This document shows, piece by piece, positions 2,302-61,215 of a DNA stretch of 64,000 nucleotides (its first letter is position 1; each line of letters opens with the position of its first letter). The notes beneath the pieces are model-generated. The model had not been told where the DNA came from. It did no database searches and was given only the letters and a program-made list of their open reading frames with translations. The translations under genes were made by a program, and so were the position numbers. The DNA lies in IMG/VR virus record IMGVR_UViG_3300042884_000193, positions 55,557 to 119,556 of that record. One strand, 5' to 3'. The DNA comes from a virus.

Positions 2302-3204
2302 TTAAACTGCATTATTAATATTATAGTCAATCGGATAAAAATATGACTTGAACATGTCATAGTATTTACCATACATAGCCTTACGATTCATAGCCCAAAC
2401 TTTCTGCATCTCAGAGAAGTTAGGAGTATTAACTACCGATAGTGCATTATTACGCGCAGCTCTAAATTCAGTAGCAATTAGTTGATACTGAACTGTCACA
2501 TTTTCTCCCATAAGAAGTAATGTCTCATAGATTTTCTTTTTAAGGGCATACTCGTAGTACTCATTTAAAAAAGGGTGATCTGGTACCATTAACTCTCCAT
2601 CCTCATTCTCCATATTTCCTTGATAGTTGATATAGATGTTACCCTCTTGGAAGCTTGTCCAAATAAAATTATCTTTTATGTAGGCGTCATCAGAAGAGTA
2701 CATCTGGAGATTAGGGCAATCACAGTCAATAAACTGAGAATTTTTAAACCTAATAGGAAACATAGATTTGTAATGACGTGTAGTTGTATTGACAACTTGA
2801 ATAAGCTGGTAATCATTTCCACATTTTGTTAGGCATACTGGTGTATTTGTAGTGTTTACTTGAGAACACAAGTTACCTTCAACCCAATCTCTATATTCAG
2901 GAACTACTTGTTGAATCTGAGTACCTTGAGGATTTACAATAGTACTCGTATACTCACCACAAATAAGAGCAAAGTTCATTACAAAGAAGTCATCAGGAAG
3001 TCTAACCTTTCCTTTAACAACTTCTAAAACTTTTTCTTTAGTGTGATATATACGTAGACCTAAATCATAGTTAGCTTTAATTGCAATTTTGACAAGCGTA
3101 GCAGGCTCAATTTTGTTCTCCAATGACGCAGTTGGAAGATCCACTCGGACATCTTCCAAAAGTTGCTCAAAAGTCCTATATTTAAGAGTGTAGTTATAGT
3201 TCAT
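2302..3204 (-). CDS. Tail/ring structural protein (300 aa)
   Basis: This mostly alpha/beta protein has several cysteines in its middle (CLTKCGNDY, DCDCPNL). It overlaps the preceding gene by 4 bases and is followed directly by the large tail protein, so the three are probably co-translated and co-assembled. Proteins with a similar start (TFEQLLEDV) and with LPDDFF and KKKIYETLLLMGE segments occur in crAss-like and related Bacteroidota phages beside the stabilization protein, by my recollection. That suggests a connector-ring or tail-hub role. No enzyme motif is visible. Function is inferred from position. Confidence 0.55.
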   Translation of the reverse strand: MNYNYTLKYRTFEQLLEDVRVDLPTASLENKIEPATLVKIAIKANYDLGLRIYHTKEKVLEVVKGKVRLPDDFFVMNFALICGEYTSTIVNPQGTQIQQVVPEYRDWVEGNLCSQVNTTNTPVCLTKCGNDYQLIQVVNTTTRHYKSMFPIRFKNSQFIDCDCPNLQMYSSDDAYIKDNFIWTSFQEGNIYINYQGNMENEDGELMVPDHPFLNEYYEYALKKKIYETLLLMGENVTVQYQLIATEFRAARNNALSVVNTPNFSEMQKVWAMNRKAMYGKYYDMFKSYFYPIDYNINNAV

Positions 3205-3875
3205 GTTCTGATAATGTTTTGTTTGTCATCTTGAGCACTGTCCGCTGGCATTTGAGCTGTTGTAAAGAATCCTGATACAACCTGCTGCTCAATCTCCATA
3301 AATAGATATTCAGGTAATGCTAGTTGTTGATCTTGTCTTATAGAACATTCTGAATTTGCATCACAAGTAAATAAAGTAACATCATCTTCAAATATACCTT
3401 CAACCTTTGCAGCATCCCAATCTACATTAGGAAAATACAAATAACCATTGAGGTACCAAAAATACTTAGTCTTATTGTATCTAAATTTGGTAGTCTTAGT
3501 CATTGCTGTATATTGAGCAGGGTCTGTTTTATATACAAAGAATGACCCGTCAACAGAAGTCACACTCCTAAGCAATGGGCCATAGGTACCTTCCATAAGG
3601 TTAGGTAACTTTTCTCTAGTGCGTTTTATTATTACTCCGGACTGAACATCGCAGCATGCCTCAACCTTGTCTATCTCAATAAGCTCGACGCAAGGCAAAG
3701 TTTTAAATATACTGTTATACTTAAGCAGTTGATTCAGTGAATCTTGTCGCTTAAGATAAAATTTTGCAGCCTTTGTTATAAGACTGAATAAGAGTCTATC
3801 AGTAATAAAAGCATCTTGAGTAAGACCTTTTATTAATGAGCGGACCCTTGATATGCTTTCTCCTACTGTAGTCAT
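3201..3875 (-). CDS. Tail/ring structural protein (224 aa)
   Basis: The N-terminal part is helical (VGESISRVRSLIKGL, then DAFITDRLLFSLITKAAK) and is followed by a beta-rich domain with KTKYFWYLNGYLYFPNVDW and an acidic FEDD segment. This pattern is familiar from crAss-like phage structural proteins next to the stabilization/muzzle gene, where ring or adaptor proteins sit below the portal. The stop overlaps the start of the 300-aa tail gene by 4 bases. The exact ring assignment is not settled from sequence alone. Confidence 0.55.
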   Translation of the reverse strand: MTTVGESISRVRSLIKGLTQDAFITDRLLFSLITKAAKFYLKRQDSLNQLLKYNSIFKTLPCVELIEIDKVEACCDVQSGVIIKRTREKLPNLMEGTYGPLLRSVTSVDGSFFVYKTDPAQYTAMTKTTKFRYNKTKYFWYLNGYLYFPNVDWDAAKVEGIFEDDVTLFTCDANSECSIRQDQQLALPEYLFMEIEQQVVSGFFTTAQMPADSAQDDKQNIIRT

Positions 3876-6651: not shown

Positions 6652-6688
6652 ATATATAATTTACTGTTTTTTTATCTATTATCAAAAT

Positions 6689-8986
6689 TTATCCTCCGCA
6701 TAATAAGCATGGCAAAACACCATCTTCTAAAACTATACTTGTAATATTTGCTGAGGTCATAGTATATGTTTGAAAAGTAGGATCGGAACCAGCAACTATT
6801 GTAAATCCAATTGCCCATAAACAATTACCATTATAATTAAATACGTATGCAGAAAAAGGATCCAGGCTATCTAAAATATTATAATCAAGTACCAGATTAA
6901 ATTGAGGACAAAGATTAGCACCTCCGCTAGGGGCACTCCCATCAAGACACTGTGTGCAACCAAAAGTACCTGGATCAACTCCATACGCTCCTACTGTAAA
7001 TGTATAAGTTATAGGTGGAGGTGGTGGTATAAAAGGATTACCTGAAGGTTCTGGACAAATAACTGGAACAACAGGTGTTGTTATTATACAGGCTGTAGGA
7101 TCATTGATAACAGCTAAGTCTGATAAATTCTTTTTAATCCATAATCTTTCTAGGTTAATACCATCGCATTGATTACTTATACCATACTTTAACTCTTTAA
7201 ACAGTCTGTAGTAACCATCTGCAAATCTTATGTTAGCCGTTATATCACACTGACTCTGCTGGATCTGATAAAACTTTCTATCAGGCTTAGGAATAACTCT
7301 TGTATACTTTATAGGAGCTGGATCTGGTGCTGGAAGACAGCACTCACAGTCTTTAAATATTTGAAGAACTCCTTCCTCATCTACGTATATAGTAAGATTA
7401 CTAATTGCTTGATCATCAAAAGGAATTTCTGCTACTTTCCAACAACTTCTTGGATCTGTATCTTGTGTTATTTTAACAACCTGCTCAAGTTCTGCAGGTT
7501 CTGCAAACTGAGAATTATAAGTATAAAGAATATCTAAAGGATCTAAACAATTAGTCAACTCATAAACAGGAGGTGGGCCAGGTAATTGACTTGCACAATC
7601 TGGACAAGTTCCAAAATTATTTAGTATTGTTATTGCTTGAGGTGAATCACCTGATTGTTCTACTACTAACCAACAAGTATTCGGATAACCTGCAATATAA
7701 AGAACTTGGCCTACGTATCCTGATATACCTGGTGTTAAAGCTACCGTTGTGTATTGTGTTTGCTCTAGTGCTATACAGTCCCTTATAGCATAAATAGTCG
7801 GAGGTGGATCACATGCTGCGCAGTTTGCAACCGAGATAATATTAGAATATACCACATGTATTGTATTACTACAATCCTCTGATTCTGTTACATAAAAACA
7901 AGAACCATCAATATTAACAAAACCGTCAAGGTAAGATGAGAATTCAGTATTAGATGCAATTAAAATATCACCTGTTTGACCACAGGGTGTTAATACATAA
8001 CAAGTTACATCAGCTACAGAACTTGTCATTGCAAGTACTGACTTCTGGTATGTGTCAGATACAGATGCCGTAAATGTAGTTAAATTAACTTGTTCTAATC
8101 TATAGATGGTTTCATCAGCGTCACTGTTAAAAAATCCAACTGGGGCACCACTTGTAGTAAATCCTTGAAAAAGGGTTGATCCTGATTTAGAGTCAATTGT
8201 TGTAGGGGGTATCATACCTACTGTATTTATCCAACTAGCACCTGCATTGTAAGAATACAATACATTACCATTACCTGCAGAAGCAATTAAAATATTATCA
8301 CTTGACCAAGCTAGATTAGTATACTTAGGTGATTTGCCCATAGCAGCAACGGTTGTACCAAAGTACTGGACCATAGTAAAACCTAATCCACCATCTGTTG
8401 ATCTAAATATTTTTCTTTTTGTAGTTACTATAATAGTAGATGCATCTGCTGATAAATGCAGACTTGTTATATAGTCATTAGGAAAAGCAGAGTCTATAAC
8501 ATTACCGGTATATAACGGTAACCATGACACACCGCCATCAATTGTCTTATATAATTTAGATTCTTGAGATGCAATACCAACTAAATCATTTATAAAATGA
8601 ATAGCAAGGCATTGAAGGCCAATTACTGCAGTAAAACTATTTAAGCGATTAAATGATACACCACCATCTGTAGATTTTGCTACACCGCCCATACCCGCTG
8701 TATAGATGATACTATTATTATTGGTATAACTTATTCGATAAATAGTTGGTGTATATGCGCTCCAGTTACCTGTACAAGTTACAAGAGTAGTACCACTATC
8801 AACTGACCTAGACAGATAGCCTAATCCTCCTAATATAATTTCATTAGGATTAGTGGGATCAGCTTTTACATCATAGAATGCAGGTGAACCACTAATAGAT
8901 TTATCGGTCCATATGCTTGTAGCATGATCATAGACTTTTAGTTTTCCCTCATCACCACAATAATATGTTTTACCTATAATGGGCAT
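6689..8986 (-). CDS. Asp-box beta-propeller tail appendage protein (765 aa)
   Basis: The first 330 residues carry about five Asp-box/BNR-type motifs (SVDSGTTL, STDGGVSF, TIDGGVSW, STDGGLGF and a weaker SYNAGASW) spaced as blades of a beta-propeller. These are common in sialidases and glycan-binding proteins, but the sialidase catalytic residues cannot be assigned here. The C-terminal half contains several cysteine-rich repeats with CxxC pairs and ends in PCLLCGG. It is probably a receptor-binding or glycan-binding appendage; enzymatic activity is not supported. Confidence 0.6.
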   Translation of the reverse strand: MPIIGKTYYCGDEGKLKVYDHATSIWTDKSISGSPAFYDVKADPTNPNEIILGGLGYLSRSVDSGTTLVTCTGNWSAYTPTIYRISYTNNNSIIYTAGMGGVAKSTDGGVSFNRLNSFTAVIGLQCLAIHFINDLVGIASQESKLYKTIDGGVSWLPLYTGNVIDSAFPNDYITSLHLSADASTIIVTTKRKIFRSTDGGLGFTMVQYFGTTVAAMGKSPKYTNLAWSSDNILIASAGNGNVLYSYNAGASWINTVGMIPPTTIDSKSGSTLFQGFTTSGAPVGFFNSDADETIYRLEQVNLTTFTASVSDTYQKSVLAMTSSVADVTCYVLTPCGQTGDILIASNTEFSSYLDGFVNIDGSCFYVTESEDCSNTIHVVYSNIISVANCAACDPPPTIYAIRDCIALEQTQYTTVALTPGISGYVGQVLYIAGYPNTCWLVVEQSGDSPQAITILNNFGTCPDCASQLPGPPPVYELTNCLDPLDILYTYNSQFAEPAELEQVVKITQDTDPRSCWKVAEIPFDDQAISNLTIYVDEEGVLQIFKDCECCLPAPDPAPIKYTRVIPKPDRKFYQIQQSQCDITANIRFADGYYRLFKELKYGISNQCDGINLERLWIKKNLSDLAVINDPTACIITTPVVPVICPEPSGNPFIPPPPPITYTFTVGAYGVDPGTFGCTQCLDGSAPSGGANLCPQFNLVLDYNILDSLDPFSAYVFNYNGNCLWAIGFTIVAGSDPTFQTYTMTSANITSIVLEDGVLPCLLCGG

Positions 8987-9791: not shown

Positions 9792-11360
9792 TTATCGGTT
9801 GTCCGCGTTAGGATCAATTGGGTCGCAAGTCTCTGGACAAGCATATGTTGTCAAAGTAGTACAGCCGCTACCTGCGTTGCTCAACCAAGCTTCAACAAAG
9901 CCTTCAAATGCTACGTTGTAGTTAGTAGTTGCAGACAATACACTTGTTGCATCTAATGCTACAGTTATAGGTGCTGTTGCACTACCTAAAGTAATTGTGA
10001 ATACTGTAGTACTTACTACTTCATAGATGTAAGCATTAGCAACGATAGTACCCGTTCCACCTGTTAAAGTAACAACCATACCTGGTAACAAACCTGCTGT
10101 AGAAGCTACAGTGATTGTACCATAAGCTGGAATAGCACCTGCAGCAGCAGTACTTGTAGAAGCAGCAGTTGAATCAATACCTGCAACAACATTATCCTCA
10201 GTTACAACAATTTGCAACAAGTACTGATCATTATCAAATACACCAGTTGGGTTGTTAAAGCGGGGAACATTGTGCTGAATATAATAGCTAGTATAGAAAG
10301 CATTGCGATTAATTGTATCATACACGTCTGTACCATTAGTGATCTCACGGATACGCAAGTCAGATCCAGTATAGAAAGGTTGTTGCATGTAGGCTTCAGT
10401 TAAGATAAGCTGACGAATAACATTCTCTCCTGTTCCTTTTAATTGCTGAGGGGTACAAGTATCATTAACACAGATACCTGTGAAAGCACAAGGATCTCCA
10501 TTAAGATCTACTTCAGAAGCATAGATTTTAACTGGCTCTAAGAAAGCAATGATAGAATCATTAGGGTAGAAAGTACAGTCTTGGAAACGTGTATCAACAT
10601 AAGCTCCTGTAATAATCAAACCAGCACCGTCAGTAGCATCAGCAGGGTCAACTACAGGAAGAGATGCTGGATTCTGAATGTAACCTAATAATAGATCTAA
10701 GTTTGTCGTAGAAGATGTACCATCTCCAAGCTCAGTCCAAGACCCACCACTGTTAGTTGTATAAGTAATCGCAACTTGAATAAATGGATTAACCAATGGA
10801 GAGTTCAACAATTGGTAAGCCCACTGTACGTATACAATCAAAGGATTTACAGCTACTGGAGCAATTGCATCAGCTGGACAACATCCAGTGTAACCAGCGG
10901 CAGTATAATAACTATTACGAGTTAATGTACGTAATACTGGAGAACCTTTGATGTCTACACGCAAGTTGTAAGTTTCACCGCAAAGGAAATCTTTAGTGCA
11001 AGTACCACCAAATTCATAGTCTGTATCACCTACTACAATTTGAGCTTGTTGAGAAGGACAAGATTCTACTTTGTAGAAAGATGATACATACTTAGGGTTG
11101 ATAGTCTTAGACTTTACAGACTCAGAATATCCACCGTGGAATGGACCAATTTTGTCATTAGGGTGAATAGAACCTGATACAAGTACCAATGGGCACTTTA
11201 AAGCAGTTGATGGATCAAGATCCGTAGGGATAGTCCAAGTTTTTGGATCAACAAAAGTAAACTGACCTAGAGTTAAGTCACTTGTTGATAATCCTGGATC
11301 AGTAACAAAACCATTGTATCCTACAAAGGTTTTCTGAAAGGCATGATTAAAATACGACAT
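9792..11360 (-). CDS. Abundant-type structural protein, candidate auxiliary capsid or tail protein (522 aa)
   Basis: This is a large soluble beta-rich protein with several Cys pairs (CTKDFLCGE, CCPADA, CTFYP). Around residues 400-475 there is an Ala/Thr-rich segment (IPAYGTITVASTAGLLPG) that looks like an inserted Ig-like or decoration domain. It stands as its own transcription unit, with an A/T-rich promoter region upstream and a strong terminator after it. Its leader AACCCTTAAA plus poly-A resembles that of the major capsid gene, which suggests high expression. No homologous fold can be named securely. Confidence 0.5.
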   Translation of the reverse strand: MSYFNHAFQKTFVGYNGFVTDPGLSTSDLTLGQFTFVDPKTWTIPTDLDPSTALKCPLVLVSGSIHPNDKIGPFHGGYSESVKSKTINPKYVSSFYKVESCPSQQAQIVVGDTDYEFGGTCTKDFLCGETYNLRVDIKGSPVLRTLTRNSYYTAAGYTGCCPADAIAPVAVNPLIVYVQWAYQLLNSPLVNPFIQVAITYTTNSGGSWTELGDGTSSTTNLDLLLGYIQNPASLPVVDPADATDGAGLIITGAYVDTRFQDCTFYPNDSIIAFLEPVKIYASEVDLNGDPCAFTGICVNDTCTPQQLKGTGENVIRQLILTEAYMQQPFYTGSDLRIREITNGTDVYDTINRNAFYTSYYIQHNVPRFNNPTGVFDNDQYLLQIVVTEDNVVAGIDSTAASTSTAAAGAIPAYGTITVASTAGLLPGMVVTLTGGTGTIVANAYIYEVVSTTVFTITLGSATAPITVALDATSVLSATTNYNVAFEGFVEAWLSNAGSGCTTLTTYACPETCDPIDPNADNR

Positions 11361-11428: not shown

Positions 11429-12019
11429 TTACAAATAATCTTTCATCTCATGGTCAAGTAAGCGCATTGCTGTCTTGTCTGTACCAAAAGCATTGAGCTG
11501 GTCTACCCAGTTTTGCATCTTGTTATGCTCTTCTACCTGCTCTTTTAGATACGCTAATGCAAACTCATATAACATATGATCTGCTTTCTTCATAGCATCA
11601 TTTGCTAAATCTTTAATCTGCTTAGTTATGGTAATTTCATGGTCATAAGACATTTCAATAATTTCAGGCAATCCTGAAAAAGTTTGATTTGGTGCATCTA
11701 ACTTAGGAGTCATTGGCTGTACGCCCATAGATAACAAGTAAGTTCTTGCTAAATCTGAATGAGCCATTTCCTCATTAGAGTACTTACGCCAAATTTTAGC
11801 AGCATTAACATAACCGTTATTATCTAACCACATAGACATAGCCAAGTAGATTCTACCTGAGTATTCTTCTTGTTGTACGCGATAGTTTAAATACTCTACG
11901 CAGTCATCTGACAATAGTATGTTCTTACCTTTAGTAGGTATTGCTTTCTTTAAAGTTGCTTGTGGTGCTGTTGTACCTACGACTTCTCTCTTTAGTAAAT
12001 TTCTTGGTTGTTCGGCCAT
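11429..12019 (-). CDS. Ferritin with intact ferroxidase centre (196 aa)
   Basis: Residues 38-190 align over the whole four-helix bundle with bacterial non-haem ferritins such as E. coli FtnA. All ferroxidase ligands are kept: E51 (QQEEYS), E84 and H87 (EEMAH), E128 (DHE), Q161 and E164 (EQVEE). Such proteins oxidise Fe(II) and store iron in a 24-mer cage. The extra N-terminal 35 residues (basic, Thr/Pro/Lys-rich) are not part of the usual fold. The gene lies between ring-type and major structural genes, 12 bases after the 234-aa gene, in the late leftward operon. The late-operon place raises the possibility of packaging in virions, which is inference. Ferritin family membership is very well supported. 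Confidence 0.9.
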   Translation of the reverse strand: MAEQPRNLLKREVVGTTAPQATLKKAIPTKGKNILLSDDCVEYLNYRVQQEEYSGRIYLAMSMWLDNNGYVNAAKIWRKYSNEEMAHSDLARTYLLSMGVQPMTPKLDAPNQTFSGLPEIIEMSYDHEITITKQIKDLANDAMKKADHMLYEFALAYLKEQVEEHNKMQNWVDQLNAFGTDKTAMRLLDHEMKDYL

Positions 12020-12030
12020 TATTGCATGTA

Positions 12031-12735
12031 TTATGAGTTTTCTTCACTAGAGCTTTGAGCAATTTGATATTGAGTAATTGACTCTATATCACCTGCTAAA
12101 ACTTGCACAGCGTCATCAACAATAGTTTCAGCGACATCATCTTTAAATTCACAAGGAACATCTGATGTAACTACAAAACCTGTGTATGGATTAACACAGC
12201 CTAAAATTTGTATCTCAACTGGATTTCTATAGTAGATAAGGTTAACTGTATCTATAGTAAAATCTGATTCTGTATATACTTTAATCTTGTTACCGGCTAA
12301 GGTACAAAATGTTTCTGCCCATTCAAAACTAGGCTTCTTGTTGGTATCACGTAGCAGAATTGCTGCATTAGCCTCCTCAGCTAAATAAACAATCATGCGC
12401 CTTGGATTAGGGCAACAGTCACTAGAGGCATAAGCATCAATTCTCTTAAACTCCATGTAGTCTGGAGGTAATGATTCTGACATTACATAATCAGGCATGT
12501 TAACAGTTGAGAGAGCTGTTGTTGTTAGCAAGGGTTGAAGATCATCAATTTTCCTTTTTGATTGCTCATCACCTTGCTTTTGGATATTAATACCTGCAAG
12601 TTGTCGACGGACCCATTGGATCTGTGCTTTATTAAAAGCCTCAACAATCTGCCAGCACTCTATGTTATCATAGTCATTACTAGCAAGCTTGTTAAGCCTT
12701 TGTTTTATTTTAATTTGCAGGGTTGAGTTGTTCAT
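12031..12735 (-). CDS. Ring/neck-type structural protein (234 aa)
   Basis: The helical N-terminus (LQIKIKQRLNKLASNDYDNIECWQ cut across residues 5-28) is followed by LPPDYMEFKRIDAYASSDCC and a beta-rich C-terminal part. The architecture (helical start, LPPDY segment, acidic C-terminus) matches ring or head-to-tail adaptor proteins of crAss-like phages as I recall them. It overlaps the 57-aa basic protein by one base and precedes the ferritin gene. Confidence 0.5.
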   Translation of the reverse strand: MNNSTLQIKIKQRLNKLASNDYDNIECWQIVEAFNKAQIQWVRRQLAGINIQKQGDEQSKRKIDDLQPLLTTTALSTVNMPDYVMSESLPPDYMEFKRIDAYASSDCCPNPRRMIVYLAEEANAAILLRDTNKKPSFEWAETFCTLAGNKIKVYTESDFTIDTVNLIYYRNPVEIQILGCVNPYTGFVVTSDVPCEFKDDVAETIVDDAVQVLAGDIESITQYQIAQSSSEENS

Positions 12736-12908
12736 TATCCTTTAACTCTTTTTAATCTTGGGTTTTTAGCTTTTGCTTTAGCAGAAGCCTTGCGTGTGCT
12801 AGTAGCTAAGATAGCTCCAGCAGCTTTTTTAGAAATGCCTTGTTTAGCAGCAATCTTAGATTGCACTGATTTAAAACCAGGATGTGCCGAATTACTCTTT
12901 TTCATCAT
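12735..12908 (-). CDS. Small basic protein (57 aa), probable virion-associated
   Basis: The product begins MMKKSNSAHPGFKSVQSKI and is about one third Lys/Arg, with an Ala/Lys-rich helix (GISKKAAGAILATSTRKAS). The start has two adjacent ATG codons, at 12908 and 12905. Its stop overlaps the next start (TAATG). Similar HPGFK-type proteins are frequent in phage structural blocks, from memory. It is likely a DNA-contacting internal protein; this is inferred from charge and place. Confidence 0.6.
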   Translation of the reverse strand: MMKKSNSAHPGFKSVQSKIAAKQGISKKAAGAILATSTRKASAKAKAKNPRLKRVKG

Positions 12909-12916
12909 CTATACTT

Positions 12917-13171
12917 TTAACATTTCCACTTTCTAAGTGACTTATTGATTCTGCTATCAGGATCATTAGCTGTCTTAGAGCTTGTAAGTTTCTTTTTCAT
13001 ACCAGACATTCTAGCACAAAAGCTTTTCTTTCTAGCTCCGCCCTCTGGTTGCGGTGCCTTCAATCCGGGTTTGCCAGGATTGGCTTTGTTATAAGAAGCA
13101 CGTCCTTTAGCATTAAGACCACCACTTGGTGCCTTACCCTCTTTTCTTTGCCATGCTGGTGACTTTGCCAT
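12917..13171 (-). CDS. DUF6321-like small basic protein (84 aa)
   Basis: The sequence AWQRKEGKAPSGGLNAKGRA is the hallmark of a small family I know as DUF6321, found in phage structural regions and some bacteria. It continues with a Pro/Lys-rich middle and SFCARMSGM. Function is unknown, but the protein is strongly basic and sits in a run of basic proteins, so an internal virion or DNA-condensing role is plausible. Confidence 0.65.
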   Translation of the reverse strand: MAKSPAWQRKEGKAPSGGLNAKGRASYNKANPGKPGLKAPQPEGGARKKSFCARMSGMKKKLTSSKTANDPDSRINKSLRKWKC

Positions 13172-13557
13172 TATTTCTTTTTTTTAACAGTTCCCCCCGC
13201 TTTACGATGCTGTATTTGTGCATTTAATATTGAAAGTTTGTCTCCTGCACGACCGGCCTTAGTAGCTATTCTATTCCCCAAGTTAAAGTTATTATTTTCA
13301 TATGCACTTCTTGCTCTATTTTCCAAATTGGCACTTCTGTTAGTCAAGAAATTTTTCTTAACGTTTTCAGAAAAGGTAGCCTTAGGATCATTTTGTTTAA
13401 AAATACCACCTTCCTCGTATTTCTTAACAGATTTAGCTTTAATCTTTTTCTCTTGCTTAAGCATTTGCGCAGTAGGTTTCTTTCCAGAACCTTTGTTAGC
13501 GCGAATGTTATCCCAAAGTCCTCTTTGAGATGTACTTCCATCTTTGCGCTTAAGCAT
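13171..13557 (-). CDS. Basic protein with LWDNIRANKGSGKKPT signature (128 aa)
   Basis: The ATG at 13557 is preferred because it lies just after the stop of the preceding 44-aa gene. A GTG seven codons further upstream (13578) is also in frame but would overlap that gene. The product has the GLWDNIRANKGSGKKPT motif seen in many Bacteroidota phage structural blocks, from memory, then an Asn/Arg-rich helical part and a lysine tail. It shares a base with the DUF6321-like gene. Probably virion-internal. Confidence 0.55.
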   Translation of the reverse strand: MLKRKDGSTSQRGLWDNIRANKGSGKKPTAQMLKQEKKIKAKSVKKYEEGGIFKQNDPKATFSENVKKNFLTNRSANLENRARSAYENNNFNLGNRIATKAGRAGDKLSILNAQIQHRKAGGTVKKKK

Positions 13558-13561
13558 TTGT

Positions 13562-13696
13562 TTACTTTTTGCAGCCACAGCTAGTCATTTTTGTGGGATA
13601 CACAGAACTCAAAGCACCACCTCTTTTAAAGGTAGGCTTTGAATTAGCATATCCAATTAATGATTTCTTTTCAGCAGTATTTACAATCTTGCTCAT
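13562..13696 (-). CDS. Small structural-block protein (44 aa)
   Basis: An ATG at 13696 opens a 44-codon frame (MSKIVNTAEKKSLIGYANSK to a CGCKK end). It exactly fills the gap between two basic-protein genes, with tight spacing on both sides. It contains a FKRGGALSS segment related in style to the GG-rich ends of its neighbours. No family is recognised. Confidence 0.5.
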   Translation of the reverse strand: MSKIVNTAEKKSLIGYANSKPTFKRGGALSSVYPTKMTSCGCKK

Positions 13697-13698
13697 TA

Positions 13699-14586
13699 TT
13701 ACTTTTTACCACCTTTTTTGTACATACCACCTTTGTTATACATGCCTCCTTTGTTGTACATAGGTGACATTTTACTACCAGCTCTTCCTCCTCGCTTCTT
13801 TTCACTAAGATCAACAATTTTAGTACCTGCTTTCTTCAAGCGAGTTGAGATAACAGAATTTGATCTTGATGAAGATGATCCACCTTCAGCATTAGAGCTA
13901 GAGTTAGCCTTAGAAGATCCTCCTGTTGCACCAGCATCACTTCTTGATGCAGGATTTGCCTGCACTTTAGTTGTTTGGTTATTGCTGTTAACATTAGTAG
14001 TAGTTGAAACAGATTCAGGATTTTTTCCACCACGCAATACTTCAGCAGTGCGTCTAGCTTTTGCATCTCTAACACCACCTAATACTTCTTCTTTTCTAAC
14101 TTTTTTATTCCAACGTCCTTCTTGACGAGCTGCTTTATCAGCTGCTTTGTTTGCTGCTTTAGTTGCTGCTTTATCTTGTCTTATATCAGCTCTTTCGGAT
14201 CTGCCCTGAACACGTGTAGTACGTCTATCTTGACGATCTTGACGTCTGTCTGCAGCACCAGGACCTTTACCAGCTATGGCTTTAACTGTATTTTTAACTC
14301 CTCTACCTACGGCAGAAGCAGCATCAGCAACAGCATATCTAGCATCATCTAGAGCATATCCAACATCAAATGCTACACCTTTAGCTGTATTTTTGTCTTT
14401 TGATACACCTTTTTTAACAACTGTTTTAAGATAAGGACCATCAGTGCGCTTTATCACTGATTTTTTAATATCACCTTTTCTATTTCGAACAACAGTTTCT
14501 TTAATAGAATAAGGACTTCCATCACCAACAATAGGAGTGGTTGTTGTAGTTCTTCTAGGAACTTTGGGTTTTTTACTTGTTGCCAT
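13699..14586 (-). CDS. Large basic protein with MYNKGG repeats (295 aa)
   Basis: The product is highly basic and of low complexity. It has a Thr-rich N-terminus, an Ala-rich central helix (VAFDVGYALDDARYAVADA), an Arg/Asp-rich stretch (RRQDRQDRRTT), a long Ser/Asn/Gly linker and a C-terminal tandem repeat (MYNKGG twice, then MYKKGG and KK). Such composition fits a DNA-binding or ejected cargo protein packed in the head. It heads the small-basic-protein block below the major capsid gene. The role is inferred. Confidence 0.5.
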   Translation of the reverse strand: MATSKKPKVPRRTTTTTPIVGDGSPYSIKETVVRNRKGDIKKSVIKRTDGPYLKTVVKKGVSKDKNTAKGVAFDVGYALDDARYAVADAASAVGRGVKNTVKAIAGKGPGAADRRQDRQDRRTTRVQGRSERADIRQDKAATKAANKAADKAARQEGRWNKKVRKEEVLGGVRDAKARRTAEVLRGGKNPESVSTTTNVNSNNQTTKVQANPASRSDAGATGGSSKANSSSNAEGGSSSSRSNSVISTRLKKAGTKIVDLSEKKRGGRAGSKMSPMYNKGGMYNKGGMYKKGGKK

Positions 14587-14603
14587 TATATTATGGGATT
14601 GAA

Positions 14604-14792
14604 TTAGTATTTATCAGGTTTAGCTTGTGGTTTATTTACTCCACCAGATTTTGCATTTTTAGGTGCGCTGTTCTGTGCAGTAGCTTTTGCATTTAAACCT
14701 ACATATGTGCCACTTGATTTAGGTGCACGCTCTACTGTAACGGGTGTGTTTAAGTTTACCCACACTCCACATGCTGAATTCTTTGTTTTCAT
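14604..14792 (-). CDS. Small basic Ala/Lys-rich protein (62 aa)
   Basis: The protein starts MKTKNSACGVWVNLNTPV and becomes a disordered Ala/Asn/Lys/Pro stretch. It follows the 339-aa structural gene and precedes the large basic protein, matching both in charge. There is no recognised domain. Its place suggests a virion component. Confidence 0.45.
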   Translation of the reverse strand: MKTKNSACGVWVNLNTPVTVERAPKSSGTYVGLNAKATAQNSAPKNAKSGGVNKPQAKPDKY

Positions 14793-14830
14793 TTTGATAT
14801 ATAAATATTAAGTTGTTATATTAAAGATAA

Positions 14831-15850
14831 TCATTGATTCCAATACTTTTCTACTTTTTTGGTTAAATCTACCAAAATTTCTTCATTTAAAGGATTAGTA
14901 AGATACTCTACAACATCTGGTTGGTTACGACCTAGTAGCACATTTTTATCTTTATGGTAGATAAATCCATCAGCTTTAGCTACAATAAACTTATAGTAAG
15001 TTGCATCTTTAACCAAAGACTTAATTTTCAAAGTCTCCATGCTAAAGTTACATGCATCTAAAAACTGTTGAGCTGCACGATTAGCACTTTTCTCAGAACC
15101 TTCTCCGGTAATATAGGTATCCATGTTGTCATAGATAATATCATTTGGTGTGTTCTTCTTGTACTGAGCACTTGCACTATCAACAACTTTAGCTATATAC
15201 CATAGTTTGTTTGTATTCTTATCAAATAGTTTTTGTAACTCAGACAAAGCTTTATTACGTAACTTCTTAGTTTCTGTTTTAGTAGATACGGTTTCAACAT
15301 GCTTATCCAAGTAAAACTTAGGAACCGGCATTTTTGATCTTGCATCTTCATAGCTTTTAGCAACGATGCTAAAGCCACCTGCATTAATCGCATACATCTT
15401 AACTAGATCATAAGGATCTTTAGGATCAAGAAATACTGGATCATTACCACACTTTAATTCAAGTTTAGACCAGAAATCATCATTGTCAGGTCTAAGCAAT
15501 TTAACTTTTGCCCAAAAGTCTTTGTCCTCTACATCAAGAACATTTGCTGCAAGCTCTCTTTCAATTTCTGCAACCACATTTCTAATTTCTTTAATTACAG
15601 CAGCTCTTACTTCTGGATCAGGAATGTTTTTAACATCTGGTGCAAATTCATTAAGCCCTGTTACATATCTTTTAATTCCATTGAATTCTAGACATGCTAA
15701 TTGTTCAATATGTTTTACTCCCTCATAGAGAGACATTCCGTATTTCTCTAATCCCATATTTGATATTCTGTCATCAAAATATGGTTTAATTGCTATTGGT
15801 GAGCGCTTAGTCTCTGAGTAACGCTCTACTTTTGTAAATGATGTTGACAT
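14831..15850 (-). CDS. Capsid-adjacent protein of unknown function (339 aa)
   Basis: This largely helical protein contains KNIPDPEVRAAVIKEIRNVV and a lysine-rich central segment (TETKKLRNKALSELQKLFD). It is the first gene after the major capsid gene and its terminator. The leader is AAAACCAACAAAC directly before the ATG at 15850, also seen before the scaffold-like gene, and TATCTTTA upstream is a near match to the -7 promoter box. A gene of this size next to the capsid gene is usual in crAss-like phages, but I cannot name its product. Confidence 0.5.
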   Translation of the reverse strand: MSTSFTKVERYSETKRSPIAIKPYFDDRISNMGLEKYGMSLYEGVKHIEQLACLEFNGIKRYVTGLNEFAPDVKNIPDPEVRAAVIKEIRNVVAEIERELAANVLDVEDKDFWAKVKLLRPDNDDFWSKLELKCGNDPVFLDPKDPYDLVKMYAINAGGFSIVAKSYEDARSKMPVPKFYLDKHVETVSTKTETKKLRNKALSELQKLFDKNTNKLWYIAKVVDSASAQYKKNTPNDIIYDNMDTYITGEGSEKSANRAAQQFLDACNFSMETLKIKSLVKDATYYKFIVAKADGFIYHKDKNVLLGRNQPDVVEYLTNPLNEEILVDLTKKVEKYWNQ

Positions 15851-15936: not shown

Positions 15937-17556
15937 TTAGAATGATCCGCCAGTGATTGGGTTACGCATAACAATTTTCAATACTTTGGTTGGGTCTTTA
16001 ACCCAGATTGCAGGCATTGTTTGTGTCATGTATACACGGTATCCATTGAATTGTCCAGAAGACGCAAAGCCTTGGCTACGTCCCATGTAATCCATAGTTC
16101 CGTTTTGGTACCACCACTTTAATTGATTATCCCAAGATAATTTCAACAAGAAGATGTTGTCATTAGTATTATCTGTGATATCAAAGATGATGAAGCTATA
16201 AGAAGACAATGGGAAACCATCAATGATTGGGTTTTCAATGTCATTAGTATGTAAGTTGTCAAACGCTGGGTTAAGCACAAACTTCACGTTAGCCAAGAAT
16301 GGGATAACATAAGAAGTGTAAGCAAATCCAAAGTTCAAGTCCATACCTTGACCAGTGATTGCTCCGATGTCAGCAGCTTGGATCAACAAACCTGAAGACA
16401 TTGCTTCACGCTTGATTGCCTCATTAACCATACGCATACCACCCATACCTGTTTGTACAATCAACTGACGCTTAGGATCTGGACCTTGGAAGTCAACCTT
16501 ACCAGCGTAGAAGTTATACAATTCAGAACGGAATAAGTCAAGGTTAAAACCAGACTTGTTATATACGCGCTTAAATGAGTTGTCCAATTGCTTCCAAAGA
16601 CCCACAGATAAACGCAAGTCATCTGGACCGTCTTGACGCACACGACCACCTTGTCCCCACATTAAGTAAGTCTCGATGTCATTTGCAACTTTAGCCAAGT
16701 GAGCTGCTTCCATTGCAGTTAAGAAAGTGCGGCTTAAAGATCCGTTAGACATAGCACGCTTAACATAATCCTTACCCATACGCGAAACCATAGTATCTAG
16801 GTTAGCTACAGATGGATCCATGTTTTTGTCAAAGTTACGCCAGATCTCTACTACAGGTACAGTACCATCAGCATTCATACCACCCTTAAGCATAAGGTCA
16901 GCACGAGAAGATACAGAATAGTGTACGTGAGCTTCAGTTCCTCCTACAAAGTTGTAGAATTCACGGAAACCAGTAGCAGTAGTGATGTCAGAGAAACGCT
17001 CTCCGTACTCACCACGAGCAGAACCTTTACGGAAGATTTTAGTACCTGGTACAAGATAGTTAGTTGATAACGAGAAAGAGCTATCATTGTTTACCAATTG
17101 TACAGTGTACAAGAAACCATCACCTAGAGGAACAATGTCATCTACAGTAATGTACATCTCAGCACCGTTGTACTTGTCATAAGTGATGATATCACCATGT
17201 CCAAATTCACGACGTGACAATTTGATTCTAAATGTAGTACCATCAGCACCTACTGTTGTAGCGCCATCTAATTCTACATCATCAACAATGTAAGGAAGAT
17301 CTAATACAACTGGTGTTTGCCACTTGTACTCTCCACGAGCATTGTCAACATTAATTACATTCTTTCCACCAAAGCTAGACATTTGGTACAAAGGCATTTC
17401 TACCTTTTGCGCCATTGCCCAAAGATCTACTGGTCCTAAATCCATAGGTTCAGAGTTCTTGAGCATGTTAACCAAGTGGTAAGAATCTACGTGTGAGCTA
17501 GCGGTGTAGCTGGTATCCCGCAGAAATATACCATTGTTTAAAACTGGAGTTGCCAT
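15937..17556 (-). CDS. Major capsid protein candidate (539 aa)
   Basis: The protein is downstream of portal and scaffold-like genes and just before a strong terminator, as expected for the major head protein. The sequence (VDLWAMAQKVEMPLYQMSSF near residue 45, SRREFGHGDIITYDKYNG, a GMGGMRMVNEAIKRE helix and PNP-like loops) is consistent with crAss-like HK97-fold capsid proteins as I recall them. It is longer than the minimal HK97 fold, allowing an insertion domain. Its A-rich leader (AACCCTTAAA then AAATAAAAAAAAC) has no Shine-Dalgarno sequence. Confidence 0.7.
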   Translation of the reverse strand: MATPVLNNGIFLRDTSYTASSHVDSYHLVNMLKNSEPMDLGPVDLWAMAQKVEMPLYQMSSFGGKNVINVDNARGEYKWQTPVVLDLPYIVDDVELDGATTVGADGTTFRIKLSRREFGHGDIITYDKYNGAEMYITVDDIVPLGDGFLYTVQLVNNDSSFSLSTNYLVPGTKIFRKGSARGEYGERFSDITTATGFREFYNFVGGTEAHVHYSVSSRADLMLKGGMNADGTVPVVEIWRNFDKNMDPSVANLDTMVSRMGKDYVKRAMSNGSLSRTFLTAMEAAHLAKVANDIETYLMWGQGGRVRQDGPDDLRLSVGLWKQLDNSFKRVYNKSGFNLDLFRSELYNFYAGKVDFQGPDPKRQLIVQTGMGGMRMVNEAIKREAMSSGLLIQAADIGAITGQGMDLNFGFAYTSYVIPFLANVKFVLNPAFDNLHTNDIENPIIDGFPLSSYSFIIFDITDNTNDNIFLLKLSWDNQLKWWYQNGTMDYMGRSQGFASSGQFNGYRVYMTQTMPAIWVKDPTKVLKIVMRNPITGGSF

Positions 17557-18904: not shown

Positions 18905-21640
18905 CTACTCTTCTGCTCCAGCATCAAATCTATTTTTGTTCTCTCTAGCAATTTGCAGCTTGGTCATCGCAATATCTTTTTGAGTAGCAAGTTTCTCTTT
19001 TTCAAGGTCTAGTTTAGTAGATGCCTGTGAAGCTCTTGAAACTTCCTTATCTTGTTGAATCTGAGTGTTTTGTCTATATAACTCAGTATTCTGAAGTTTG
19101 TCCATAGCATCAACATAGTCACTTTGCTTGTTCTCATTGATGTCTTTCATTGAGCCAAAGCCTGCAGATTTGATCTGAGCTTGTAGAATATCAGCTTGAC
19201 GATTTTTCTCATTCTCAGCAGACTCAAACTCCATCTTCTGCTTAGCTTCATCTTGTTTAGCTTTGATAGCTTGATCTTGCATTTGTTGTTGCTGTTGCAT
19301 TTCTTCTTTACGCTTTTGCTCAGATTTAATCTCAGTAGCTTTAAGTACATTAGTAACTTCGGCAATAGACTCAGACTTCATAATATTACCAAGATCATAG
19401 ATTGACGCATTAGTTGTATTATTCTGAATAGCTAATTGTTTAAGCTGATCTAGTAATGCTCTTTGGTTAGAGCGCGTTGTGCAATATACATTAAAGTCTC
19501 TGAGCATTAGATCAGTACCGTTAATCTCAAAGTTAGCTTTTTCTTCAGCTGTTGTTATATATTGTAAGCGTACCGAGGGTTTGGTACTGTGATAATACTG
19601 GGATAAATCTGTACGCATAGAGTGTACACGTGGCATTAAATAATCACAGTGCTGTATAAAATATATTTCAGTTTGAGCATAAGATGAGTTTACAGCTTGT
19701 TCAACACCTGTTGCAGTTTCTTGTGATAACTGTTGTCCCATCCGTTGCGGAGTAATACCTATTGTCTCAAAAGCTTGCATCTTAAAGTAATTAGCCAACT
19801 GAATACGAGACATTAAGCGGTTAGTTTGCTCAAGGTCAAGTTTCTGATAGTGCTGGAAGGCAAGTGGATTTTCTGTATTACTGATAGATGTATCTAAGGG
19901 TAAGATCTGAAAATTCTTCATTGCAACATATGCTTTTGCATAAGCATTCTTACCCCAGTCTTCTCCAAGAGAATGTTTAGGTAAAGCATTCTGATCCAAT
20001 AAGATAACTGTTCCCAGTTCATCTATTAATATATCTGCAATCTGGTTATTTACAATGTTGTAGCCAATCTGAAATGGCTTCATTAAATCAATTAGGGAAG
20101 TAGATCTTGTATTACGGTCAGAGAATACGGAGCCCTCAATAGGAAGTTTACAACCATACAGAGAGTTGTCTCCTTTAAATTGAAACTTTATTGGCTTGAT
20201 TGCATTTTGGTTCACACCTAAATATATAGGATTAATACCTCCGGGAGATTTAGTTCCCCAGAAAGATGGCGCGTGAGGGCCAATCTTAACTCCACCCCAA
20301 ACCTCATTGATCCAGATCCAATCTATATGTTCACCAAACATTAGATTATTTTTGGTCTTATTTTTAATAAGGTTAGTATCATAGACAGGTTTATCTACAA
20401 CCTGATAGTCTTCTGTAATAACTTCATGTGATGCATTACCAAGATCATCAATCTTGGTTAAGTGCCCTACACGACGCTGCGATTTCCAATATACTGTAGT
20501 TACACGAAGCATATCTGTTAATCCCATGTCAAAGAAATCCTCTGACTCACTCATAATCCATTTAACAATATCTCCACCTACTGTAGAATTTTGCCACATG
20601 GATGTATATTGACGGTAACCAAGAGATGGCATTTCTGTATTCCACTCATGTGATTTAGTGCCATCATAGTAACTACCATCATTCTGATATCCCTGGATAG
20701 GATATCCCGCAGAGCGCACAGGATATATAAGCTCTAATGATTTAAGCTGATCCTCATTCATCAACCACCCATACTTGTCAACTACATCAGCAACAGACAT
20801 CATATCAAACTTACCAGCCCAACTTCCCTCTGATATATAACGTGTGTCTGGTGATTTATGGTAGAATGTTAATACTGGATTCCATAACTCAATATTATAG
20901 TCGTCCTCCATCATCTTAAAGTGCCAGAACTCACGGTCAGTAATAAGCATATCACGGAAAGCTCTTTCTTCAAGTTCTTCCATGTGAAATCTCTCAATAT
21001 CATTCAAGTGTTGGTGAGTAGCCCATTGCTCTACTATACCTGTATAACTTTTCTGAAAAAAGTTCTGTATCTCAGGTAATGTTTTAAGTTTATCTGGCGA
21101 TAGTACATCTTGATATTGTTTTTCATCAATATCATATCCCATATTTTGAAGATTAGTTTTAACCTTCAACTCTGCTTGTTTTAACAATAACTGCTCTACT
21201 TCAGTTCTCTTAGCCTCTAATTCTTCATTATATGAAATATCATCAACAGCTTTAAATATAACCTTTGTACTTCTCTTAGAAAATTCAGCAACAAGTGTAT
21301 TAATTACACTAGGAATAATAGGATAAAACTTAAGCTCTAATGCTGAAGTATCTTCTTTTGTAAGAACTTCTATCATGTCGGCATACTCATTATCCTGCTC
21401 TATGATATAGTCGGTTTTATCTATGATACCTTTAGCCAGCTTATAGTTCTTCATAAGGCGGCGAGCATTGCGACGGATTTGTTTTAATCCTTCCCATTCC
21501 AACCAGTCAAGGTTCCATGCAGCCCAAGCTTCATCTTTTTTGGAACGTGGCAAAAACTGAATAGGCTGATTAAGAGTACCCATTTTGTTGTACTCAACCT
21601 TGGCACCAGCCTTAACTTGCATTGCATTAAATATCTGCAT
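18905..21640 (-). CDS. Portal protein (911 aa)
   Basis: The length, the place between TerL and the scaffold/capsid genes, and a long helical, Gln/Lys-rich C-terminal tail (from about residue 760, with a Q-repeat) fit the large portals of crAss-like phages. The central part has many aromatic and charged residues (WHFKMMEDDYNIELWNPV; TSMWQNSTVGGDIVKW). The portal is the dodecameric channel for packaging and ejection. Its start is 5 bases from the TerL stop, so the two are co-translated. The long tail may form the barrel inside the head. Confidence 0.75.
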   Translation of the reverse strand: MQIFNAMQVKAGAKVEYNKMGTLNQPIQFLPRSKKDEAWAAWNLDWLEWEGLKQIRRNARRLMKNYKLAKGIIDKTDYIIEQDNEYADMIEVLTKEDTSALELKFYPIIPSVINTLVAEFSKRSTKVIFKAVDDISYNEELEAKRTEVEQLLLKQAELKVKTNLQNMGYDIDEKQYQDVLSPDKLKTLPEIQNFFQKSYTGIVEQWATHQHLNDIERFHMEELEERAFRDMLITDREFWHFKMMEDDYNIELWNPVLTFYHKSPDTRYISEGSWAGKFDMMSVADVVDKYGWLMNEDQLKSLELIYPVRSAGYPIQGYQNDGSYYDGTKSHEWNTEMPSLGYRQYTSMWQNSTVGGDIVKWIMSESEDFFDMGLTDMLRVTTVYWKSQRRVGHLTKIDDLGNASHEVITEDYQVVDKPVYDTNLIKNKTKNNLMFGEHIDWIWINEVWGGVKIGPHAPSFWGTKSPGGINPIYLGVNQNAIKPIKFQFKGDNSLYGCKLPIEGSVFSDRNTRSTSLIDLMKPFQIGYNIVNNQIADILIDELGTVILLDQNALPKHSLGEDWGKNAYAKAYVAMKNFQILPLDTSISNTENPLAFQHYQKLDLEQTNRLMSRIQLANYFKMQAFETIGITPQRMGQQLSQETATGVEQAVNSSYAQTEIYFIQHCDYLMPRVHSMRTDLSQYYHSTKPSVRLQYITTAEEKANFEINGTDLMLRDFNVYCTTRSNQRALLDQLKQLAIQNNTTNASIYDLGNIMKSESIAEVTNVLKATEIKSEQKRKEEMQQQQQMQDQAIKAKQDEAKQKMEFESAENEKNRQADILQAQIKSAGFGSMKDINENKQSDYVDAMDKLQNTELYRQNTQIQQDKEVSRASQASTKLDLEKEKLATQKDIAMTKLQIARENKNRFDAGAEE

Positions 21641-21645
21641 ATCTT

Positions 21646-23859
21646 TTATCTAAAATTTTTAAATGGACTTCTTGGTAACTTCATACCACTAAAGCTCTTG
21701 TCACCCCCACCAATATGACGGAAAGGGCTCATATTCAATTTACTGAATTTATCGTTGTTATCCAAGCTTTTTGGTTTACCGCTATCTTCAAATCTTTTTT
21801 TATAACCTCTATTTGCTTGTTGAACTTTTGCAAAAGCTACTAAAGCAGCAAAAGCTACAAGTCTATCTACGTTAACTCCTTCTCTATAAGCTTGCATTTC
21901 TTTAAGCAACATGATGTCTGGTATACGCTCTATACCATAGGTAGTCTTAACTACTTTACCATCAGCTGTTGTTTCTTCATGTAGCTCCTCACGTAAGAAT
22001 TCAATAGCATAACTTACCATATGACTTTTAAATAAAGTCCCTGTATTACGCCAGCCGTATTCCTGGAATACATTAGCGTTAGCTCCTATATCTTTCAAGA
22101 ATAGAATCTGCTGTCTTGGAACTAAATACTTTTGCTTCTTACGGTTAATCATATGTGTGATAAACTGTGGAATATTATTCTCAACAATAGTCCAGGCATT
22201 GTACCACTCAATAATAAGTTCTAATCTCTCATGTGTTTTATTGATATCATCAAAGCGGCCACACCAAGCAGCTACTAGTTTATCCTGCTCAATAGCAGTC
22301 TCTACCTCATCACCGTCTCTCCTTGTTACTTCTACAGATGTTTTATACACATAGATGGCGCACAAGGACTCTGATGTAGTAGTTTTACCTTCTCCCACGG
22401 GATCGACAGATGCATAATACATCCCAAATTCAGGATCCTTGCAGGGTCTTTCATATACAACAACACATCCTGTTTTATCCTCTGTGTCTTTTGTAATAGG
22501 AAAATCCTTGATAGGTAATTTGTTAGTCTCCTTTGCAGTTATCTTACCATTCTCATCTTTATATATCTCAAGGTGCTCATAAGGATAAATCTTTTCTTCA
22601 ATTCTTCTCATTTGAGCAACAACCAAATGCTGAGGAAATGCAGATGCTGTTCTAAAATCAAAAGCTTCTTTAATATTTCTAGGATGCTGTGATATACGAA
22701 GCTGATATTCTGCCGGATCTAATTCTCTTTTCCATGCCGCAAATTGTTCATCCAATGCAACAAGAGCTTCTTCTACTTTAGAGTTACCAAAAGAATCTAT
22801 AAATGGGGGCATTGACCATTGTTCAGGAATAAACAAACCTGTTCTACCATGCACACCGGTCTCATCAATTAATCTTGATTCTACTGCATATATATCATTA
22901 GCATCAGGCCTGATAATCATTTTACGTAAAGGCTCACACTGAGACAAATCTCCTACAGAACCTGCAGCAATAAACATTCCCGTAGTCATGAATCCTGATT
23001 TCATAGCAGGGCGTATGTACTCAAATGTTGTATCCATCTTAGGAGCAATACCTGCTTCCTCATGGAAAAAATACCTGCACGGTCCCCCTACACCATTGGT
23101 AGGATCTTTCTCAAAAGACATACCCTGGAGTACACCTTTAAGACCTATTTCTGTTTTACGTTTCTGAATACCTGTGGTTATCTCAATCTTCTGTTGCCAC
23201 ATCATAACCTTATTAGGATTCATAGGGCGGTACCAGGCAGTGTGTTGATTTAAAAAAGCCTCGTATTCATTTAAGAATTTCCAAGTTCCTTTCTCATTAA
23301 TATAGTCTTTAAGACTAGCTCCCATTTTAAGAGTAACCCCTTCCTCAAACCAGATCTGATTTATAAACTTACCAGCATGATAATAGGATGATGCAATTTG
23401 ACGTTTCTTTAATATGGCGGCATGTTTAAAGTTTAATTCAGCCAGCATCTCATATAACGCCATATGATACTGAGCATCTCTGACATCAGCAAAACCATAT
23501 TTTTGAATCTCTTTATTAAAGATAGGTAAGAAGTTTAACCACATATAATAGTCACGTGGTATATACCAGGCATTGCCATTATTTTTATATATAGCTCCTA
23601 AACGACATTTATCTTTTTGATCATTCCAGTATTGTATGTAGTCTTTAGTACCCTGAGGAAATTGACAATAAAAACCTTTAGCATTAAAGTTTCTTGCCTC
23701 AGCATTGAATACAAGACTTGTTTCATCAAACTGATATTGACCCGGCTCTTTAAATATGCTAAAAACAAAATCTCTAAAATCATCATGAGTAGCAAAGAGG
23801 GTCATTGACCACTCTCCATTTTCCCATGTAGGAATTTCTATATCTGTTTGTTGTAGCAT
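21646..23859 (-). CDS. terL: Terminase large subunit, TerL (737 aa)
   Basis: TerL pumps DNA into the head through the portal and cuts it. The N-terminal ATPase has a deviant Walker A around residues 148-165 (LKKRQIASSYYHAGKF) and a Walker B-like CRYFFHEEAG at 261-270 with paired Glu. The C-terminal RNase H-type nuclease begins at MYYASVDPVGEG with D486; E560 (TIVENN) and Asp residues in the last third (GIERIPDIMLLKEM) are candidate metal ligands. It is followed at once by the portal gene. Confidence 0.85.
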   Translation of the reverse strand: MLQQTDIEIPTWENGEWSMTLFATHDDFRDFVFSIFKEPGQYQFDETSLVFNAEARNFNAKGFYCQFPQGTKDYIQYWNDQKDKCRLGAIYKNNGNAWYIPRDYYMWLNFLPIFNKEIQKYGFADVRDAQYHMALYEMLAELNFKHAAILKKRQIASSYYHAGKFINQIWFEEGVTLKMGASLKDYINEKGTWKFLNEYEAFLNQHTAWYRPMNPNKVMMWQQKIEITTGIQKRKTEIGLKGVLQGMSFEKDPTNGVGGPCRYFFHEEAGIAPKMDTTFEYIRPAMKSGFMTTGMFIAAGSVGDLSQCEPLRKMIIRPDANDIYAVESRLIDETGVHGRTGLFIPEQWSMPPFIDSFGNSKVEEALVALDEQFAAWKRELDPAEYQLRISQHPRNIKEAFDFRTASAFPQHLVVAQMRRIEEKIYPYEHLEIYKDENGKITAKETNKLPIKDFPITKDTEDKTGCVVVYERPCKDPEFGMYYASVDPVGEGKTTTSESLCAIYVYKTSVEVTRRDGDEVETAIEQDKLVAAWCGRFDDINKTHERLELIIEWYNAWTIVENNIPQFITHMINRKKQKYLVPRQQILFLKDIGANANVFQEYGWRNTGTLFKSHMVSYAIEFLREELHEETTADGKVVKTTYGIERIPDIMLLKEMQAYREGVNVDRLVAFAALVAFAKVQQANRGYKKRFEDSGKPKSLDNNDKFSKLNMSPFRHIGGGDKSFSGMKLPRSPFKNFR

Positions 23860-60808: not shown

Positions 60809-61215
60809 TGGGAGAAGTATTTAAACTTGATGAGTCAACATATAAGAATTTGTTGGCTATGGCTAAGTCTGTAGATAAAGAGAACCATGTTGTGGTTAAG
60901 AATCTTATTGACTCTTCAGATATCCAGGCTAATTTACCCTACATACTTATGTTATGTAAAGAAGCAGGACATAAGAATCTAAATCTTGATTCAGATACTG
61001 TAGCAAAGCTAAAAGAAATTACTGGTTTAGATTATAACAGTGTCCTTACTTGGAATAGTATGTATGATGTACTTCACAAAAATGTGAATGTTGATCCAAT
61101 AGCTATGGGATTCTTTATTAATAGATTTTCAGAAGAATTAGGGAGGCAATTAGAAACTGCCGGTTTTACTTTCATGGAGAAATATCAATTAACATTAATA
61201 CCAAAAGGTAAATGA
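60808..61215 (+). CDS. Unknown protein preceding the VWA gene (135 aa)
   Basis: The ATG at 60808 (MGEVFKLDESTYKNL) overlaps the previous stop (TAATG) and is preferred to an earlier in-frame start. The product is helical (TYKNLLAMAKSVDKENHVVV; TVAKLKEITGLDYNSVLTWN; FFINRFSEELGRQLETAGF). It overlaps the VWA gene by 4 bases and may be a partner of the ATPase/VWA pair. Confidence 0.5.
   Translation: MGEVFKLDESTYKNLLAMAKSVDKENHVVVKNLIDSSDIQANLPYILMLCKEAGHKNLNLDSDTVAKLKEITGLDYNSVLTWNSMYDVLHKNVNVDPIAMGFFINRFSEELGRQLETAGFTFMEKYQLTLIPKGK

Follow-up and report, generated by a model that had tools for sequence, protein, structure and literature searches.

A gene slot among the virion genes of crAss-like phages holds a ferritin or a Dps-like DUF5856 protein behind one short N-terminal tag

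In encapsulin systems, a short peptide directs cargo of the ferritin family to an HK97-fold shell, and in Escherichia coli Dps it is an N-terminal tail rich in Lys and Arg that binds DNA. Phages also encode proteins of the ferritin superfamily, such as the Dps of Lactobacillus phages and of Gratiaviridae, the latter having both Dps and Mn-catalase (PMC8008677). The Kuttervirus Sajous1 ‘ferritin’ gp217 turned up in mass spectra of virions purified on CsCl; the study itself cautions that low counts may reflect debris (PMC10892097). Phage iron carriage has so far been argued mainly on indirect grounds. Phage ferritin and Dps genes as such are thus already known, and the actual finding reported here is a gene slot in crAss-like phages in which two unrelated ferritin-superfamily cores alternate behind one tag. 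It includes a near-isogenic natural pair of loci differing mainly in the core, so that the function of the tag and the iron chemistry of the particle become directly testable. This alternation between ferritin and DUF5856, the key point, had escaped the earlier note on this DNA. Literature searches for ferritin together with Crassvirales, and for DUF5856, returned nothing.

The known systems differ from this slot in several ways. Sajous1 gp217 has a DUF5856 core (DUF5856-like by BLASTP, 1e-14), as does the alternative slot occupant, but it is tagless, belongs to the Ackermannviridae and lies outside a head/adaptor gene block, the Kuttervirus gene being near primase and endolysin genes. The Dps proteins of Lactobacillus phages and Gratiaviridae belong to other core families, and neither the crassvirus slot nor a shared tag is described in the available part of that source (PMC8008677). 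The resemblance to encapsulin cargo is an analogy of working only, namely addressing by a short peptide: the tag described here is N-terminal whereas the encapsulin signal is C-terminal, the shell would be the phage capsid, and loading is putative. The C-terminus of the ferritin is an E helix, the extension is N-terminal and the neighbours are portal, major capsid protein (MCP) and adaptor genes, none of which fits an encapsulin cargo.

The window, by which we mean the whole 64,000-nucleotide stretch analysed, comprises bases 55557-119556 of a virus record of 119,556 bp. The phage is crAss-like, because a conserved block on the minus strand holds terminase, portal, Crassvirus-type MCP and crAss ring proteins 1 and 2, the set that defines Crassvirales. 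The matches to PF23898, PF25702 and PF24228 all exceed the Pfam cut-offs, and portal and terminase large subunit (TerL) were identified through PHROGs profiles. The features of the block are as follows.

21646..23859, minus strand: terminase large subunit (phrog_6681, 2e-61)
18905..21640, minus strand: portal protein (phrog_6547, 5e-90)
15937..17556, minus strand: MCP, Crassvirus type (PF23898 Crass_capsid, 2.3e-33)
12031..12735, minus strand: adaptor/ring-type virion gene, upstream boundary of the slot (phrog_29507 virion structural protein, 1.4e-14)
9792..11360, minus strand: 522-aa structural-block gene, downstream boundary of the slot (phrog_6005 virion structural protein, 1.4e-5, a weak and partial match)
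3201..3875, minus strand: tail ring protein 2 (PF25702 CrAss_Ring_2, 1.9e-18)
2302..3204, minus strand: tail ring protein 1 (PF24228 CrAss_Ring_1, 4.3e-14)

The 12031-12735 gene also matches SU10_adaptor below cut-off, and its product shares 29.5% identity with gp064 of phi17:2, annotated as a virion structural protein. By MCP, the nearest isolates are Leptolyngbya phage Lbo-JY46 and Cellulophaga phages phi4:1 and phi17:2, at 26-28% identity. Lbo-JY46 (L194, PP438436.1), the best MCP match among isolates, encodes crass-like TerL, portal, MCP and adaptor in the gene order of the window phage; its host is a cyanobacterium, and Crassvirales are usually held to infect Bacteroidota.

Between the two slot boundaries lies the ferritin gene, with the following parts.

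11429..12019, minus strand: ferritin (FtnA type), 196 aa, ATG start; 35-aa N-terminal extension followed by a five-helix ferritin core
11915..12019, minus strand: basic extension at the N-terminus (residues 1-35), for the most part predicted to be disordered (residues 1-25 with pLDDT <50)
11985..12019, minus strand: codons of the shared tag, MAEQPRNLLKR; 35/35 nt identical to the DUF5856 gene of locus L116, the genes being unrelated beyond
11429..11914, minus strand: ferritin core, residues 36-196, from the invariant ligand columns of alignment A1 and the FtnA alignment
11867-11869, 11768-11770 and 11759-11761, minus strand: ferroxidase ligand codons E51, E84 and H87
11636-11638, 11537-11539 and 11528-11530, minus strand: ferroxidase ligand codons E128, Q161 and E164

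The product matches Pfam PF00210 at 6.7e-22 (78.4 bits; curated cut-off 24.5), and its best PDB relative is Vibrio cholerae ferritin 3qz3 (E 9.6e-25), with E. coli FtnA (1eum) matching too. An AlphaFold2 model built from 25 phage homologues reaches pLDDT >90 in the core and superimposes on 3qz3 with a TM score of 0.93 and 1.2 Å (Foldseek). Its helices (38-67, 71-97, 117-144, 148-178 and 182-195) form a four-helix bundle plus a short C-terminal E helix. The six ferroxidase ligands are invariant in 25/25 aligned homologues, as are the site-C ligands E83, E160 and E163; the former align with E17, E50, H53, E94, Q127 and E130 of FtnA. The open reading frame is thus an FtnA-type ferritin whose predicted catalytic site is intact. 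With the bacterial FtnA proteins it shares fold, A/B ferroxidase and site-C ligands and E helix, but it differs from them in sequence (30-33% identity), in its phage lineage, in the 35-aa tagged extension and in its location in a structural operon. The earlier note had proposed a complete ferritin with all six ligands and a basic N-terminal extension of 35 residues in a structural gene block, and in each of these respects its description held. Judged by a dN/dS of about 0.05-0.1, with a dN similar to the capsid protein's and lower than in the other neighbours, the gene is under purifying selection.

At least 74 distinct viral ferritin homologues were gathered; three human faecal matches (H1-H3), short unverified contigs, were left out of the analysis. 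A search for the same neighbourhood in related phages, as the earlier note had advised, found the ferritin flanked by homologues of 12031-12735 and 9792-11360 in nearly all close relatives, the 9792-11360 homologue being the conserved next gene at nearly all slot loci. In the window the ferritin starts 11 nt past the end of the adaptor gene on the same strand, and it is therefore probably co-expressed with the virion genes. At least about 160 related loci were gathered with the capsid and adaptor proteins, and most of their slots hold not a ferritin but a protein of 134-175 aa identified as DUF5856 (PF19174)/phrog_858, found as slot occupant at at least about 90 loci. The slot is empty at 11 distinct loci of the clade among the matches listed; phi17:2 and Lbo-JY46 have empty slots. 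The virion atlas of phiCrAss001 does not mention ferritin (PMC10172136), and together with these two empty slots this indicates that the function is dispensable across crassviruses. Both occupants stand in tandem within the slot of L308, L309, L310 and L312 (around 6001-7010), and between portal and MCP in L323 and L325 (6001-6920); these loci may be intermediates of a swap. Strict mutual exclusion, with which genome searches had agreed, is ruled out by the tandem loci. In those searches DUF5856 was found elsewhere in the genome in 0/12 ferritin-carrying records, and a ferritin search of 20 records gave a single clear match, in the record of L193, itself a ferritin-slot phage, besides two weak matches that are DUF5856 slot proteins. 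Across the gathered loci, then, the slot is fixed in this phage clade and is occupied by ferritin or Dps-like DUF5856, rarely by both or neither.

Ferritins also occur at other positions. In a sister lineage the gene lies between the portal and MCP genes and has different short N-termini, and in a few divergent phages it adjoins TerL or very large ORFs. The portal-MCP ferritins, found in a separate group of crAss-like phages (L323, L341, L349, L357), directly follow the portal gene, and their own short N-termini are conserved, for example MSSLKLTPPAKKTNPF and MAIPTFKPTGIKNPF.

DUF5856 has no BLASTP similarity to the ferritin, and HH-profile comparison of the two found no core similarity, the tag region alone aligning. 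Across 75 sequences H65, H77, D92 and E96 (L116 numbering) are invariant, forming the pattern H-x11-H in which D follows the second H by 15 positions and E by 19. This is the spacing of the Dps ferroxidase site, whose intersubunit ligands in E. coli are H51, H63, D78 and E82. Dps-type proteins are the best PDB matches of the DUF5856 profile (3e-6), and Foldseek assigns its model to the ferritin/Dps fold, mostly to Dps chains, at modest scores (E 0.01-0.05, TM about 0.6). The two occupants thus have in common the genomic slot, the N-terminal tag and, by ligand pattern, superfamily chemistry, whereas the Dps-like DUF5856 is shorter, has four helices and an H-H-D-E site, and lacks the E helix. 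DUF5856 is found in hundreds of phage records, and the slot offers it a plausible physiological role.

The tag on both proteins consists of M, a few residues, a hydrophobic residue and L-K-R (M-x-LLKR), followed by a variable basic Ala/Pro/Ser linker, as in the window ferritin (MAEQPRNLLKREVV..) and the DUF5856 protein of L116 (MAEQPRNLLKRDPEP..). A 13-position profile made from DUF5856 N-termini only was run on 2,204 N-termini from the gathered loci: ferritins are its nine best non-DUF matches, with 9/25 at E<=0.14 against 0/2,108 other ORFs. BLASTP of the L011 ferritin against the L040 DUF5856 protein aligns a 24-aa stretch (71%, 8e-5) that is, by inspection, the tag. Of 49 distinct slot ferritins 36 have LKR, whereas of 25 ferritins located elsewhere just one does (Fisher p 7.6e-9); a second element, SRP, occurs in 35/100 proteins of the slot and in 5/1,814 of the remaining ORFs. 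The leucine L9 is near-invariant (at least 90%, alignment A2), and an alternative tag, MQKIxRP, is common to the tandem ferritin and DUF5856 of L310. LKR is encoded by 12 different codon triplets, a synonymous variation that rules out an RNA-level cause of the conservation and points to selection on the peptide. The net charge of the extension is positive for 96% of the ferritins and for 95% of the DUF5856 proteins in the slot (means +3.6 and +2.4), and the cores are acidic. The earlier note had held the extension to be absent from cellular ferritins, which is true mostly but not universally: most of the 80 nearest cellular relatives start about 0-19 residues ahead of the core. The proteins of Winogradskyella ludwigii and Bizionia myxarmorum, the closest chromosomal relatives among the matches listed (43-48% identity), start almost directly at it; unlike the window ferritin they have no extension and are encoded on host chromosomes beside stress-type genes. 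In the Winogradskyella and Bizionia chromosomes (L199 and L201, about 3000-3530), this nearest tagless ferritin sits in a conserved stress-type cluster. Other virion proteins were considered as bearers of the tag: small basic ORFs and the families of 13171 and 14831-15850 reach at best E 0.37-0.5, and on inspection the 14831-15850 family has the motif IAIKPYFD, unlike the tag. Tag similarity follows phage phylogeny weakly and not significantly (permutation 171/2000), and co-evolution of the tag with a docking partner is therefore not demonstrated.

The exchange of cores is most visible between L116 and the window, which share 98.4-99.2% DNA identity on both sides of the slot. Identity ends 35 nt into the gene, after the tag (codon 11-12), and returns at the 3' end of the gene. 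A second swap pair, L008/L128 (82-89% around the slot), has a boundary of the same kind, and in the pair L011/L137 the switch falls at the start codon. Slot states were placed on a FastTree phylogeny, with local support values, of the MCP, 14831-15850 and 12031-12735 proteins from 107 loci, which had been gathered by similarity search among the matches listed and include some fragmentary contigs. Of these loci 73 carry DUF5856, 23 ferritin and 11 neither; explaining the ferritin label takes 15 changes, of which the starred branches force 14 or more. As read from these pairs and this tree, one core has repeatedly replaced the other behind a short N-terminal tag that both have in common. An assembly chimera is possible for the single L116/window pair and unlikely overall, because of the 14 or more state changes across the tree and because the ferritin version occurs in several contigs (G000, L001, L002). 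On the ferritin tree most phage ferritins cluster, and the sole intruders are the Winogradskyella/Bizionia pair and a phage-like ‘Sulfuricurvum’ contig; a clade made up of viral sequences alone stays compatible with the data (p-AU 0.159). Recent capture from a host was set aside on these grounds, and acquisition by phages looks old. The phage ferritins being a largely phage-specific group, the swaps would therefore reflect exchange that recurred between phages rather than a series of captures from hosts.

We propose, with a probability of about 55%, that the slot encodes a late-made, exchangeable iron-oxidising cage that its tag recruits to phage DNA or to the particle under assembly, where it would limit Fenton damage. 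Indirect experimental support comes from Sajous1 gp217, the DUF5856 relative seen in purified Kuttervirus virions. The gene would be expressed late along with the virion genes, and the ferritin would assemble into a 24-mer, oxidising Fe(II) and sequestering it. The tag, with its hydrophobic residue, L-K-R and flexible basic linker, would carry the cage to the particle or DNA, where it could shield packaged or soon-packaged DNA from iron and peroxide. An FtnA-like or a Dps-like core could fill the slot because both would share Fe(II) oxidation chemistry. A pair of this kind behind one tag suggests that these phages bring an iron-handling cage to their particles or DNA. A more specific version, which we put at somewhat below even odds, has a modular docking peptide loading interchangeable FtnA-type or Dps-type nanocages into or onto virions as a virion-borne antioxidant compartment, with recombination swapping the cargo behind the tag. 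Capsid space would be no obstacle, since the cargo zone of phiCrAss001 measures about 1.1e7 cubic Å (PMC10172136) and a ferritin sphere of 12 nm diameter, by our own estimate, about 9e5 cubic Å.

Among the alternatives, a soluble late iron and ROS buffer that stays in the cytosol, outside the virion, and limits Fenton damage as host iron homeostasis collapses is unlikely, though the least so. A ferroxidase core works without docking, cellular ferritins and Dps do the same job, and ferritins at other phage loci, like the Kuttervirus DUF5856 beside primase and endolysin genes, go without the LKR tag, which in the slot might then serve solubility, stability or a host partner. What such a buffer leaves unexplained is why one peptide motif persists on two unrelated cores despite variable linkers and synonymous codon changes, and why the slot keeps its position among virion genes. 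The idea of a docking tag, voiced in the earlier note, has gained support from the occurrence of that short tag on a second, unrelated core, the Dps-like one of this slot; for the extension taken by itself, a DNA-binding tail of the Dps kind is equally possible. The fuller form of that idea, with both cores coating and protecting phage DNA before or during packaging and making no specific capsid contact, draws on the Dps precedent, on the basic extensions before acidic cores and on the Dps-like nature of the majority occupant. The near-invariant Leu and the LKR and SRP motifs are more than charge can account for, and we consider this DNA-coating role improbable.

The least credible alternative by far is an iron gift, in which an iron-loaded ferritin carried by the virion exploits host iron receptors, in the manner of a Ferrojan horse, or supplies the next host, as the earlier note had entertained. 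The gene does lie among virion genes, and ferritin-mediated entry has been suggested for Kuttervirus, but TonB- and FeoB-deficient hosts proved about as susceptible as wild type (PMC10892097). Moreover, the crassvirus tail has constrictions of <50 Å (under 5 nm), and partial unfolding of cargo has been proposed (PMC10172136); a folded cage of ~12 nm should not pass, so that a loaded one is unlikely to reach the next host.

Further features of the phage lie outside the slot. Positions 12736-14830, bounded by the 14831-15850 and adaptor genes, hold hypervariable small basic ORFs whose number and content differ among relatives. Inside this stretch is a DUF6321 gene (12917-13171), a domain that PHROGs profiles place at the C-terminus of far larger proteins. 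Among replication-type genes on the plus strand, 61212-62405 encodes a DUF2201 metallopeptidase and VWA-like protein. Beyond the window limits, the same virus record (L032:9102-18632, minus strand) encodes a 3,176-aa protein in a block of giant proteins, with a sub-threshold match to an ADP-ribosyltransferase (ART-PolyVal).
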